From contig NZ_CP036525.1 of the NCBI RefSeq assembly GCF_007741535.1, forward strand, positions 7,564,001-7,628,000: a stretch of DNA of 64,000 nt, written 5' to 3'. Shown here in pieces: positions 14,811-43,560 of this stretch. The DNA comes from Rubripirellula lacrimiformis. GTDB lineage: Bacteria; Planctomycetota; Planctomycetia; Pirellulales; Pirellulaceae. The notes below the pieces were generated by a model that was given only the letters and a program-made list of their open reading frames with translations, did no database searches and was not told the origin of the DNA. The position numbers were made by a program, and so were the translations under genes. How positions within the stretch are numbered: the stretch's first letter is position 1; every line of letters starts with the position of its first letter.

Positions 14811-14870
14811 GATTCTCGATTCTCGATTCTCGGTTCTCGGTTCTCGGGTTCTGGGTTCGGGGGGGGGGGG
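14811..14870. repeat. Degenerate heptamer tandem repeat ending in a G12 tract
   Basis: GATTCTC occurs three times (14811-14831), then GGTTCTC twice (14832-14845), then drifting copies to 14858, followed by twelve consecutive G (14859-14870). It sits within the 470-bp gap (14544-15012) upstream of the second membrane GT2 gene, about 140 bp from its start. The 13 bases at 14803-14815 also occur in the palindrome at 62549-62570. Nothing else is recognisable in the gap. Confidence 0.8.
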
Positions 14871-19183: not shown

Positions 19184-20545
19184 ATGCCGTCCACCTATCC
19201 GCTGACCCACTTCGAAGAGCTGATGCTGCATCAGGACAGCACTTCGCTGCCCACCACCTGCTTTGTCCGCATGCGGTTCCATGGGCGACTTGACGAAGCC
19301 GCATTCCGATCGGCAGCACGGGCAACGATCGCACGACACCCGCTGTTGCGTTCGACGGTCCAACAGCAGCGGGGAAGATACCGATGGCAGGTGGAACAAC
19401 CGACACCTCAAATCACTTGGTGCGAGACGTCCGATTCGGAACGCCCCCAATTCGACCGCCTAGACCTGAAGGTCCAGCATGGACTGAAGTTTGCCGTTCG
19501 TTTGAACCAGAGTGATTCCGAATTGATGGTCCAGTTCCATCACGCTTGCTGCGACGGGCTGGCGATCTTTCAGGTCATTCACGAACTGCTGGTGGCCTAC
19601 ACGATGCAGATAGACCAAGACGCCGACTATTCGATTCCGGACGTCGACCAGAGCCTGATGGCAGATCGCGGATCGCTAGGACTGACGACAAGAAGCTTTC
19701 TGCGAATCGCATCTCGCCAAACAGTCGGACTGCGTGGGGTATGGCAATTCCTGACTCGAAAACCAGAACACTTGGTGTCCCATCGCGTAGCCGATCCAAC
19801 GGATCCAACACCACCGACTTTCCCGGCCGTCGTCGCCCACCACTTTGACCAACAAGATTCCACGAAGCTGCGACACGCCGCCAAACGGCAACGGGTAACA
19901 CAAAACGACCTGTTGATCAGCAACCTATTTCTTGCTCTTTCAGAGTTCCGGCGATCACAGAACGTCACCAACACCAACGGTTGGCTGCGATTGATGATCC
20001 CGGTCAGCATGCGGCGGAAACAGCAGTACCAGGCGCCGGCTGCCAACATCGTCAGTTCCGTGTTCCTGGATCGACGAAGCGGCGACATGGATGAACCTGA
20101 TCAACTGCTGAAAGGCCTCAGCGAGGAAATGAGCCTGATCAAACGACGGCAGTTGAACTACCTGTTCATCTATTCGTTGTGGGCACAAAGATGGGTCCCA
20201 CGTGGGCTAAAACGAACCGCCAGACCCAAGCGTTGCCAAACGACAGTGGTTTTCACGAACCTGAGTCGCCTGTTTGCACGCAGCCCGTTGCCACGCAGGG
20301 AAGGGCGGTTGCAGTGCGGGAACGTCGTGCTTGACGAAGTCGAAGCGATCCCGCCCATCGCCAGACATCTGAATGCGGCGTTCGGAGTCAGTTGGTATGC
20401 AAAACGAATGACGATCACCCTGCATCACGACCCCCGAGCGGTTTCGACGCAGGCGGCCGAGGATCTGCTAGACATGGTCGTTCGGCGGATTCGGGAATCG
20501 TCCGACCGCGAATCGATGGGCGAAGAAATCCCCGAACGTGGTTAA
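19184..20545 (+). CDS. Condensation-domain / WS-DGAT-like acyltransferase
   Basis: The family core begins at PLTHFEELMLHQD, right after the ATG at 19184; an ATG at 19139 is an alternative, while the frame back to 19001 would overlap the previous gene. The catalytic HHxxxDG motif is intact as HHACCDG (His119-His120...Asp124). The second half has the NDLLISNLFLALSEFR helix and VVFTNLSRLF strand that match the floor/latch region of condensation, PapA-type and wax-ester-synthase-like acyltransferases. At ~453 aa it is a single stand-alone domain without carrier or adenylation domain. It may transfer an acyl group from CoA or carrier to an alcohol or amine. It pairs with the ATP-grasp gene upstream. 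Confidence 0.75.
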   Translation: MPSTYPLTHFEELMLHQDSTSLPTTCFVRMRFHGRLDEAAFRSAARATIARHPLLRSTVQQQRGRYRWQVEQPTPQITWCETSDSERPQFDRLDLKVQHGLKFAVRLNQSDSELMVQFHHACCDGLAIFQVIHELLVAYTMQIDQDADYSIPDVDQSLMADRGSLGLTTRSFLRIASRQTVGLRGVWQFLTRKPEHLVSHRVADPTDPTPPTFPAVVAHHFDQQDSTKLRHAAKRQRVTQNDLLISNLFLALSEFRRSQNVTNTNGWLRLMIPVSMRRKQQYQAPAANIVSSVFLDRRSGDMDEPDQLLKGLSEEMSLIKRRQLNYLFIYSLWAQRWVPRGLKRTARPKRCQTTVVFTNLSRLFARSPLPRREGRLQCGNVVLDEVEAIPPIARHLNAAFGVSWYAKRMTITLHHDPRAVSTQAAEDLLDMVVRRIRESSDRESMGEEIPERG

Positions 20546-20575
20546 GAGCCACCTCGGGAAGCAGGCCGGAACCAA

Positions 20576-21530
20576 TCGTTTAACCACGTGGGCAACGCCC
20601 CGTGCGTCCCCACAAAACGCGCGGCCCGATAGGCACGCGGTGAAACGACAGCGGCCCCCCCAAGCCCAGATCGTTTAACCACGTGGGCAACGCCCCGTGC
20701 GTCCCCACAACAAAACGCGCGGCCCGATGGGCACGCGGTGAAACGAAAAGCAGCCCCCCAAGCCCAATCGTTTAACCGCGTGGGCAACGCCCCGTGCGTC
20801 CCCGCAACAAAACGCGCGACCCGACGGGCACGCGGTGAAACGACAAGCAGCCCCCCAAGCCCAGATCGTTTAACCACGTGGGCAACGCCCCGTGCGTCCC
20901 CACAGCAAAACGCGCGGACCGATGGGCACACGGTGAACCGACAAGCAGCCCCCCCAAGACCAATCGTTTAACCGCGTGGGCAACGCCCCGTGCGTACCCA
21001 CAAAACGCGCGGCCCGATGGGCACACGGTGAAACGAAAAGCAGCCCCCCAAGCCCAATCGTTTAACCGCGTGGGCAACGCCCCGTGCGTCCCCACAACAA
21101 AACGCGCGGCCCGACGGGCACGCGGCTAAACGACAGCAGCCCCCCCAAGACCAATCGTTTAACCGCGTGGGCAACGCCCCGTGCGTACACGCAACAAAAA
21201 CGCGCGGCCCGATGGGCACGCGGTGAAACGACAAGCAGCCCCCAAGCCCAATCGTTTAACCGCGTGGGCAACGCCCCGTGCGTCCCCACAACAAAAACGC
21301 GCGGCCCGACGAGCACGCGGTGAAACGACAAGCAGACCCCCCAAGCCCAATCGTTTAACCACGTGGGCAACGCCCCGTGCGTACCCACAGCAAAACGCGC
21401 GGCCCGATGGGCACGCGGTTAAACGACAAGCAGACCGCGCACCCCAAGCCCAATCGTTTAACCGCGTGGGCAACGCCCCGTGCGTACACGCAACAAAACG
21501 CGCGGACCGATGGGCACGCGATGAAACGAT
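20576..21530. repeat. Tandem array of ten ~97-bp palindromic units
   Basis: TCGTTTAACC begins units at 20576, 20671, 20768, 20866, 20964, 21058, 21155, 21252, 21351 and 21454; the spacing is 94-103 bp, and the last unit ends near 21530. Within each unit an opening arm TCGTTTAACCGCGTG (with C/A variation) is complementary to a closing arm CACGCGGTGAAACGA about 45 bases later (14 of 15 in most units). Two inner hairpins, GGGCAACGCCC and GCCCGATGGGC, lie inside. A C-rich spacer of about 20 bases joins the units. All ORFs across the array, on either strand, are repeats of the same few residues and are treated as non-coding. The array fills the gap between the acyltransferase and desaturase genes. 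Confidence 0.95.
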
Positions 21531-21676
21531 AGTCGCCCTATCCCGGTCACTATCAAGCCCCTACAATCCAGCGCTCGCCGGTTCGCGGGCACGCTTGGTG
21601 ATCCCAGCTGGTGTGTCGCGATGATATTGCTGCGATTGCTGGCATCTTGAAAGCACGGACCCGATGGGCTTGTCAG

Positions 21677-22657
21677 ATGACCGCTACAGATCAGTCGCCA
21701 CCGCAGGTTGCTGAACACCAATCGCCTGATCCGCCATGCGATCACGAATCGTATCAGCTGACCGAGATTGCGATTCCGATCATCGGGATGCACGTGCTGG
21801 CGCTGTTGGCGTTTATCCCTGATTTCATCACGTGGACCAACGTTTCGCTGTTGGCGATCACGTTGTTGATCTTCAGCAACGGAATCACTCTTGGGTACCA
21901 TCGCCTGTTGACGCACAGAAGCCTTCGCGTTCCCAAATGGGTCGAGTACTTCTATGTCGGGCTAGCGCTATGCTGTCTGCAGGAATCACCCGCCAAGTGG
22001 GTTTCAACGCATCGCCGCCACCACAACCATTCGGACGAACCCGACGATCCGCATTCGCCCACCGCCAGCTTTCTGTGGTCGCATGTCGGTTGGTTGCTTT
22101 GGAAGCGAAAAGGGCAGCACGAATTTCGCACCGACAATCGCTACTGTGCGGATATCGTTTCGGATCCGTTTTATGCGTTGATGGAAAAGTATCCGGACCT
22201 GCCAGCAGGCATCTACTTGATTCACGCGTTTGCGTTTTGGTTGGCAGCGACCGCGATCTTTTGGATCGACATCAGTTTCGGTGCGGCCGCTTGGCAGGGT
22301 CTTGGCGTGATGCTTTGGTGCGTTGTGCTGCGAACGGTCATGGTCTGGCACTTTTCGTGGTCGGTAAACTCGCTGACCCATTGCTTCGGCTACCAGAACT
22401 ATCAAACATCCGATCACAGCCGAAACAATTGGCTGGTAGCGCTGCTGTCCAATGGCGAAGGCTGGCACAACAACCACCACCATGACCCGGCCAGTGCGTC
22501 GGTGCAGCACAAGTGGTGGGAATTCGATCCCACGTATCTTCAAATCCGAATCCTGAAACGCCTCGGTTTGGCGACGCACGTCATCGCGCCTCGGCAGGTC
22601 CGACATCACGCCGGCGAACAACGCAAACCGGCCTGCCAAGACGGGGTGGTTCGCTAG
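21677..22657 (+). CDS. Acyl-CoA (delta-9 type) fatty acid desaturase
   Basis: The ATG at 21677 is preferred over the frame from 21611. The 326-residue integral membrane protein has all three histidine boxes of the di-iron desaturases: HRLLTH (75-80), HRRHH (112-116) and HNNHH (264-268). Hydrophobic helices at about 30-75 and 175-225 bracket them. The GYHRLLTHRS and GEGWHNNHH contexts are those of stearoyl-CoA desaturases. The enzyme would introduce a double bond into a membrane or product acyl chain, using electrons from a donor not encoded nearby. It precedes the PqqD-HprK operon by 131 bp and could be co-transcribed with it. Confidence 0.92.
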   Translation: MTATDQSPPQVAEHQSPDPPCDHESYQLTEIAIPIIGMHVLALLAFIPDFITWTNVSLLAITLLIFSNGITLGYHRLLTHRSLRVPKWVEYFYVGLALCCLQESPAKWVSTHRRHHNHSDEPDDPHSPTASFLWSHVGWLLWKRKGQHEFRTDNRYCADIVSDPFYALMEKYPDLPAGIYLIHAFAFWLAATAIFWIDISFGAAAWQGLGVMLWCVVLRTVMVWHFSWSVNSLTHCFGYQNYQTSDHSRNNWLVALLSNGEGWHNNHHHDPASASVQHKWWEFDPTYLQIRILKRLGLATHVIAPRQVRHHAGEQRKPACQDGVVR

Positions 22658-43491: not shown

Positions 43492-43560
43492 TCCCGCCTC
43501 CCCGCCGATCTCTCCCGCCTCCCCGCCGATCTCTCCCGCCCCTCCCGCCAACCTCTCCCA
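43492..43560. repeat. 21-bp tandem repeat between DUF1501 copies
   Basis: Two identical 21-bp units (43492-43512 and 43513-43533; a TCCCGCCTCCCCGCC core followed by GATCTC) are followed by degenerate pyrimidine-rich copies to about 43560. The strand is C/T-rich throughout. It ends 12 bp before the third DUF1501 start and could affect its translation or simply be slippage. Confidence 0.85.

Follow-up and report, generated by a model that had tools for sequence, protein, structure and literature searches.

A tandem array of REP-like doublets in Rubripirellula lacrimiformis, probably mobilised in trans by a RAYT-like transposase

The window described here, a 64,000-nucleotide stretch covering positions 7564001-7628000 of an 8.54-Mb, single-contig source genome (G000), contains an array of ten head-to-tail copies of a palindromic unit. 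We interpret this array, with a probability of about 0.8, as a modular BIME composed of REP doublets that are mobilised in trans by a RAYT-like enzyme; its spread was probably helped by a single-copy transposase gene that lies inside one array of the family. A preliminary description of the window had offered a REP/BIME-like family as the first of several readings, and this reading is now supported by the family's high copy number and extragenic position, by a RAYT-like gene in one array, and by insertion sequences lodged in the hairpins.

All ten units of the window array share one orientation and recur with a period of 94-103 bp (successive start-to-start spacings of 95, 97, 98, 98, 94, 97, 97, 99 and 103). 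Individual units measure 73-77 bp and the spacers between them 20-27 bp. Tandem Repeats Finder reports a 97-bp unit in 9.8 copies at 20572-21529 (score 1447), with the double period of 195 bp scoring slightly higher (1485); together with the ten mapped starts, this confirms that the ten tandem ~97-bp units noted earlier are real. A gap of 30 bp separates the array from the stop codon of the condensation-domain gene that precedes it. The features of the region are:

19184..20545, + strand: upstream gene, condensation-domain protein (Pfam Condensation E 6.9e-10; start codon chosen by reading)
20576..21529, + strand: array of ten REP doublets (BIME-like), from repeat finding and unit reading
20576..20648, + strand: unit 1, a type-a REP (GGGC-AAC-GCCC) on the left and, across a short loop, an inverted type-b REP (here GCCC-GAT-AGGC) on the right
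20671..20746, + strand: unit 2
20768..20843, + strand: unit 3
20866..20941, + strand: unit 4, the most degenerate (outer arms pair at 11/15)
20964..21036, + strand: unit 5, short loop, 73 bp
21058..21133, + strand: unit 6
21155..21231, + strand: unit 7
21252..21328, + strand: unit 8
21351..21426, + strand: unit 9
21454..21529, + strand: unit 10
21677..22657, + strand: downstream gene, fatty-acid desaturase (Pfam FA_desaturase E 1.2e-19; start codon chosen by reading)

The preliminary description had given every unit outer arms complementary at 14 of 15 positions and two inner mini-hairpins. Arms of that quality are found in five of the ten units, with 13/15 in four and 11/15 in one. All ten units preserve an intact left mini-hairpin (GGGCAACGCCC), and five of them an intact right one (GCCC-NNN-GGGC). 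Several reading frames are open through the array (20542-21916), with ORFs of 83-152 aa that carry repeats (THGALPTRLND, for example), and automatic annotation may therefore report false proteins here.

The window array is one member of a family found throughout the source genome. Exact left-half patterns occur 338 times (89 + 101 + 148), and the reversed control gives zero. We analysed 63 merged stretches totalling 0.99 Mb, the window included, which contain 334 of these 338 matches; in them, an oriented HMM identified 466 units (396 of them full length), which form 48 clusters with between 1 and 21 units each. Each array has a single orientation, and since the cluster at 6.853 Mb comprises two arrays back to back, array counts below use 49 rather than 48. 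Further copies lie outside the analysed 0.99 Mb, where several insertion sequences sit in doublets. None of the 49 arrays falls inside a gene according to a simple ORF caller; the family thus has the form of a REP/BIME (REPIN), a short palindromic sequence with more than 100 extragenic copies.

The 76-bp unit comprises a REP of type a, a loop and an inverted REP of type b, which is the inverted pairing of a REP/BIME (REPIN). Both 32-bp ends are strongly conserved across 363 end-to-end units from 44 arrays, and each consists of a TCGTTTMAC tag followed by a bulged hairpin with a 3-nt loop: GGGC-AWC-GCCC at the left end (type a) and, on the other strand, GCCC-ANC-GGGC at the right end (type b). 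Between and around these conserved ends, the loops and spacers are specific to each array.

A Pfam Y1_Tnp search of the source genome returned five stretches, the weakest of which is a gene inside the array at 5.222 Mb, with units on both of its sides:

G000:C1:5222195-5222809 (= L041:7196-7810): RAYT-like HUH-Y1 gene, intact, 204 aa, inside the 5.222-Mb array

The four other Y1 matches have no unit within 1.5 kb on either side. This gene is the sole match at E<=1e-8, and thus single-copy, in the source genome; a transposase flanked by its own REPs, with one copy per REP type, is the arrangement of a RAYT / TnpA-REP. The preliminary description had named REP-associated transposases as something to look for, and one is indeed found within an array. 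Residues H102 and H104 (HxH) and Y172 are invariant in 24/24 aligned homologues (24 of 30 were taken into the alignment), which provides the HUH motif and catalytic tyrosine of this enzyme type; the motif around the tyrosine is YVIENP. The protein falls below both curated family cut-offs, at 46.1 bits versus a cut-off of 80 for NCBIfam REP_Tyr_transpos (E 4.4e-12) and a weak 21.6 bits versus 23 for Pfam.

We compared the protein with known structures by sequence and by predicted fold. Its single sequence (P0001) matched nothing below E 0.35, and a profile of the 24 homologues found the Y1 transposases 2ec2 (1.8e-5) and 4er8 (0.0014). An AlphaFold model (mean pLDDT 83.8, with residues 27-43 mostly poor) has the predicted fold of a Y1 transposase, and its best structural match in VIA-align is 4ER8 (Z 11.5, rmsd 2.7 over 122 residues); this likeness is that of a predicted RAYT model, with 15% identity over the aligned part, and the IS608 and ISDra2 transposases match it about equally well. 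The 204-aa protein looks like a RAYT and probably works like one, while lying outside formal membership of the family models.

Homologues of this RAYT occur in 58 of the 396 genomes of the order, with 1-4 matches per genome. The nearest, 72% identical, belongs to another genus (G224), where REPs lie on both sides of the gene with 32-bp ends nearly identical to those of the source genome and a much longer loop. Repeats of at least 14 bp common to both flanks were found at 26 of 30 homologue loci versus 4 of 51 desaturase-gene control loci. Such repeats also flank 14 of 15 other Y1 genes in G000 and G021, so it is not the flank repeats but the tag that is special to the RAYT clade: GTTTARC reaches 1.76/kb in homologue flanks (1.46/kb without G000 and G224), versus 0.11/kb in controls and 0.20/kb around the 15 other Y1 genes. 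The flanks of four of the 30 homologue loci (L168, L169, L172 and L178) contain no GTTTARC.

The hairpins 3' of the tag vary from genome to genome, and we used this variation to examine their pairing. From the 115 tag sites in L151-L178, the covariation analysis took 39 distinct sites at 17 loci that have the inner 3-bp stem at a fixed register. The outer stem is paired in 88 of 117 cells, compared with a shuffled mean of 53.7 and maximum of 76 (0/2000 shuffles as high, relatedness of sites being ignored); at L157, L160, L161 and L163 it hardly pairs at the tested register. The half-unit hairpin therefore covaries between genomes, and the compensatory changes of a REP/BIME (REPIN) appear between genomes, with scattered cases within one.

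In an initial search of 40 genomes, the 99-bp unit turned up in two, G000 and G021. Of 396 genomes, 11 carry the left-half 25-mer when a single mismatch is tolerated, five of them being rich in it, and none carries its reversed control; searching relatives had been proposed at the outset. Copies number 465 in G021, 406 in G000, 101 in G224, 82 in G186, 17 in G315, 2 in G264 and 1 in each of five others. Two of the five REP-rich genomes, G000 and G224, carry this RAYT at E<=1e-8. At the same threshold no homologue of it was found in G021 (a 310-contig draft), G186 or G315, and its absence from three of the five speaks more strongly than any other result against a strict coupling of RAYT and REP. 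The gene could have been lost once the family had spread, or could fall into a gap of the G021 draft. Loci in G021, which belongs to the same genus (L021-L025, L231, L243 and L248), are mostly single a/a doublets and not a/b arrays, and isolated exact REP 25-mers occur in genomes otherwise nearly free of them at L223 (G365), L226 (G264) and L232 (G204).

The neighbourhood of the RAYT array also provides an empty site. The lipoprotein-like gene that adjoins this array is found in 20 of 22 genus genomes, including the source genome. Its acyltransferase-like partner (named by look) lies 56 bp away in G011 and 59 bp away in G018, measured between match ends, and the gap between the two genes holds neither a RAYT nor a tag. 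This comparison was informative in 2 of 19 relatives; in the others, the partner is not found within the compared flank.

Two unrelated insertion-sequence families use the hairpins of the doublet as landing sites, one hairpin each (insertion-sequence loci L252-L263 and L265-L271 in G000). Elements of the IS1182 family (NCBIfam E 1.6e-89) are present in 12 copies of at least 73% identity, a count that leaves out a thirteenth match, 26% identical. All 12 lie in the type-b (right-half) hairpin, and in 11 the 3-bp hairpin loop is present at both ends of the element. Elements of the IS4 family (NCBIfam E 2.3e-87) are present in seven copies with identical proteins; six lie in the type-a (left-half) hairpin, where 10 bp (GGGCAWCGCC or the complement) are duplicated, and the seventh lies elsewhere without a duplication. 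Targeting of REPs by insertion sequences is known: the accessible passages of Tobes and Pareja (2006; PMC1525189) describe ISPsy8, with 3-bp repeats at the hairpin axis, and ISRm22, an IS4-family element of which nine copies lie in REPs. Our elements resemble these cases in the 3-bp duplication at the hairpin axis and in the presence of an IS4-family element in a REP palindrome, and differ from those described in these passages in that one doublet is split between two families, IS1182 in type b and IS4 in type a with a 10-bp duplication.

In the mechanism that we propose, the element would be a non-autonomous mobile sequence whose ends are the two 32-bp REPs, forming a REPIN-like 76-bp doublet of which head-to-tail copies would have accumulated at a single intergenic site. 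The HUH-Y1 transposase of RAYT/TnpA-REP type encoded in the 5.222-Mb array would mobilise this doublet in trans. The enzyme would be expected to recognise tag and hairpin on single-stranded DNA, to nick beside the tag and to paste the doublet elsewhere; after insertion, the doublet and adjoining DNA, more often that on its 5' side, would be multiplied in situ. The system probably works like the REP/RAYT systems described in Gammaproteobacteria.

Multiplication in place of the doublet together with neighbouring DNA would yield spacers and loops specific to each array. Within arrays, divergence is 0.061 for the REP, 0.166 for the loop and 0.164 for the spacer; between arrays, it is 0.518 for the loop and 0.531 for the spacer. 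REP divergence is below spacer divergence in 25 of the 26 arrays tested, arrays whose longest run had fewer than six usable units having been dropped. Spacers within one array are thus alike and not unique, in agreement with the earlier statement that the array is not a CRISPR. Across 26 loci, the gaps from unit to unit measure 1-90 bp, apart from gaps of ~1.6 kb that contain an insertion sequence, the 721-bp gap that contains the RAYT and a gap of ~6 kb separating two clusters. The GTTTAAC box resembles the R' of attC, but the absence of gene cassettes between units at these 26 loci speaks against an integron attC array.

The DNA around the arrays points to a local origin of the spacers. The 45 bases 5' of the first unit resemble the array's own spacer above the spacers of other arrays in 20 of 37 arrays, the 3' flank does so in 8, and both flanks do so in 3. 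One-sided matches number 17 at the 5' side versus 5 at the 3' side (sign test p 0.017, on a per-array rank test uncorrected for 37 arrays), which is suggestive of a 5' polarity in flank copying. In the window array, the resemblance of flank to spacer is significant on neither side.

Local multiplication of this kind, clear from the array-specific spacers and loops, would also be produced by a tandem satellite that arose by replication slippage or unequal recombination of a palindrome, with no transposase and with the RAYT in one array by coincidence. Adjacent units are more alike than distant ones at p<0.05 in 4 of the 26 arrays, as such a satellite would predict, and the three REP-rich genomes without a cognate RAYT at E<=1e-8 also speak for it. 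We nevertheless consider a satellite improbable. The 48 clusters share their 32-bp ends while their spacers are unrelated; the ends have therefore moved, which slippage cannot achieve. Moreover, RAYT and REP are paired again in G224, where the ends are almost unchanged, and in further genomes, where the hairpins differ. The REP arms are better conserved than the spacers in all but one of the arrays tested.

We next consider where the arrays lie relative to genes. They fall between convergent genes in 27 of 49 cases, compared with 135 of 564 gene gaps in the same stretches (p 1.1e-5), and between divergent genes in 5 of 49, compared with 115 of 564 (p 0.09). The preference for convergent sites and the conservation of REP arms within arrays would fit a binding site for a host protein, such as gyrase or a nucleoid protein, or a role at transcript ends, for which the sequence would be retained, mobility being a thing of the past; the binding of gyrase by E. 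coli BIME-2, mentioned in the accessible passages of Nunvar et al. (2010; PMC2817692), counts in the same direction. We judge this to be quite improbable, since most relatives searched lack the element, which argues that it is not an essential site, and a preference for 3' ends is equally expected from selection against insertions in genes and promoters.

The arrays show no transcription bias: of the 17 that lie in tandem gene pairs, 8 share the direction of the genes and 9 oppose it. A replication strand bias, strong in the first arrays, was lost once all 49 were counted (16:6 versus 12:15, p 0.08; 17:8 versus 11:13, p 0.15, with the arm drawn to the contig end). The position of the origin is uncertain because there are two DnaA-like genes, with strong DnaA-domain matches at G000:C1:112-576 (the contig start) and at 4392821-4393279, near a GC-skew switch at ~4.35 Mb; GC skew was sampled from the 63 analysed stretches only.

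The preliminary description had also suggested that each unit could fold into a branched, cloverleaf-like shape and that the array might encode structured RNAs. As DNA, the Tandem Repeats Finder consensus unit folds better than shuffled sequences (z -3.35), and folding each of the ten real units, as had been proposed, gave z values of -0.51 to -3.28. The four-way cloverleaf is the predicted DNA minimum in two of the ten (units 3 and 6). As RNA, the consensus gives z -2.68 and its complement z -2.12, with the cloverleaf as minimum for the complement only. At position 7, the most variable stem position, A or C occurs at either end independently (A/A 166, A/C 77, C/A 76, C/C 30; Fisher p 0.61; 14 units with G left out), and compensated pairs within the source genome are few and scattered in both half-hairpins and in the long stem. 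These two results indicate that the sequence of each end is kept, and not a 76-nt cloverleaf, so the branched fold is not supported as a selected structure.

Lack of covariation together with absence of the unit elsewhere had been put forward as the sign of a meaningless, slipped sequence. The first part holds for the whole unit, which shows no arm-to-arm covariation; the second does not, since copies of the unit abound elsewhere in the genome and some relatives have it too. Covariation between genomes is seen in the half-unit hairpin. The cloverleaf or small-RNA reading is highly improbable: the consensus RNA beats its shuffles on both strands, but its arms do not covary at the most variable pair, few real units have the cloverleaf as their DNA minimum, and searches found no tRNA, no Rfam match at gathering thresholds and no sigma-70-like promoter in the array region (the scan covered this type only). 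A miRNA-family Rfam match at a lax threshold (21 bits versus a gathering score of 93) was discarded as chance. A terminator scan gave one weak site, fewer than in shuffles.

We return to the RAYT-mobilised BIME and compare it with published systems, as described in the accessible passages of each source. Like the modular BIMEs and REPs with RAYTs of Nunvar et al. (2010; PMC2817692), E. coli BIME-2 among them, the family has inverted REP pairs head to tail, array-specific inter-REP DNA, a RAYT directly beside a BIME, two REP subtypes per doublet and an extragenic position; it differs from the systems in those passages in its TCGTTTMAC in place of GTAG, its arrays of up to 21 units, its host phylum (Planctomycetota) and a RAYT below the NCBIfam and Pfam cut-offs. 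It shares with the REPtrons and TnpA-Y1 subclasses of Quentin et al. (2018; PMC6006769) an HUH-Y1 gene flanked by its own repeat family in hundreds of copies. Their Class 3, in the passages available, likewise occurs in Planctomycetes and carries a W[TA] motif, both likenesses to the RAYT of the source genome; Class 3 is defined there by Y----Q and a CnGA foot, versus YVIENP and a GTTTARC foot here.

Short tagged stem-loops in dimers and clusters are likewise features of the GTAG and CGTC superfamilies of Rocco et al. (2013; PMC3733652), the accessible text of which lists R. baltica as one of the genomes that combine several REP families with many Y1 genes; the foot there is GTAG (or GTGG) or CGTC, and here TCGTTTMAC in the 363-unit consensus. 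The succession of foot motif and bulged stem also recalls TnpA-REP on single-stranded REP hairpins (Corneloup et al., 2021; PMC8266576; PDB 4ER8), within the accessible part of that paper. Judged by sequence, the family is a BIME/REPtron of a known sort with an unusual tag, outside GTAG, CGTC and Class 3 as published. In the titles, abstracts and passages searched, with supplements and most subscription papers beyond that search, we recognised none that deals with this repeat or with a REP tagged GTTTARC.

A broader proposal, which we make tentatively and rate at slightly under even odds, is that GTTTARC REPs form a third superfamily of REPs, with a RAYT clade of their own across Pirellulales, with directional copying that takes in 5' DNA, and with two hairpins that serve as separate docking sites for two unrelated insertion sequences. 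The family described here would carry REP/RAYT biology beyond the GTAG and CGTC tags. With 48 clusters whose spacers are local and a single candidate enzyme, it would offer a clean system for distinguishing rolling-circle from slippage routes of BIME amplification, and the two DDE insertion-sequence families that split one doublet make it directly testable whether such hairpins extrude in the cell.

Other repeats were seen alongside this family. In the window, two further short tandem repeats lie at 43492-43559 (21 bp, 3.2 copies) and 14813-14858 (7 bp, 6.4 copies). At five Y1 genes in G000 and G021 (L134, L136, L137, L139 and L144), the flanking repeats are built around GGKGTCAG, seemingly another REP-like family with a different tag.
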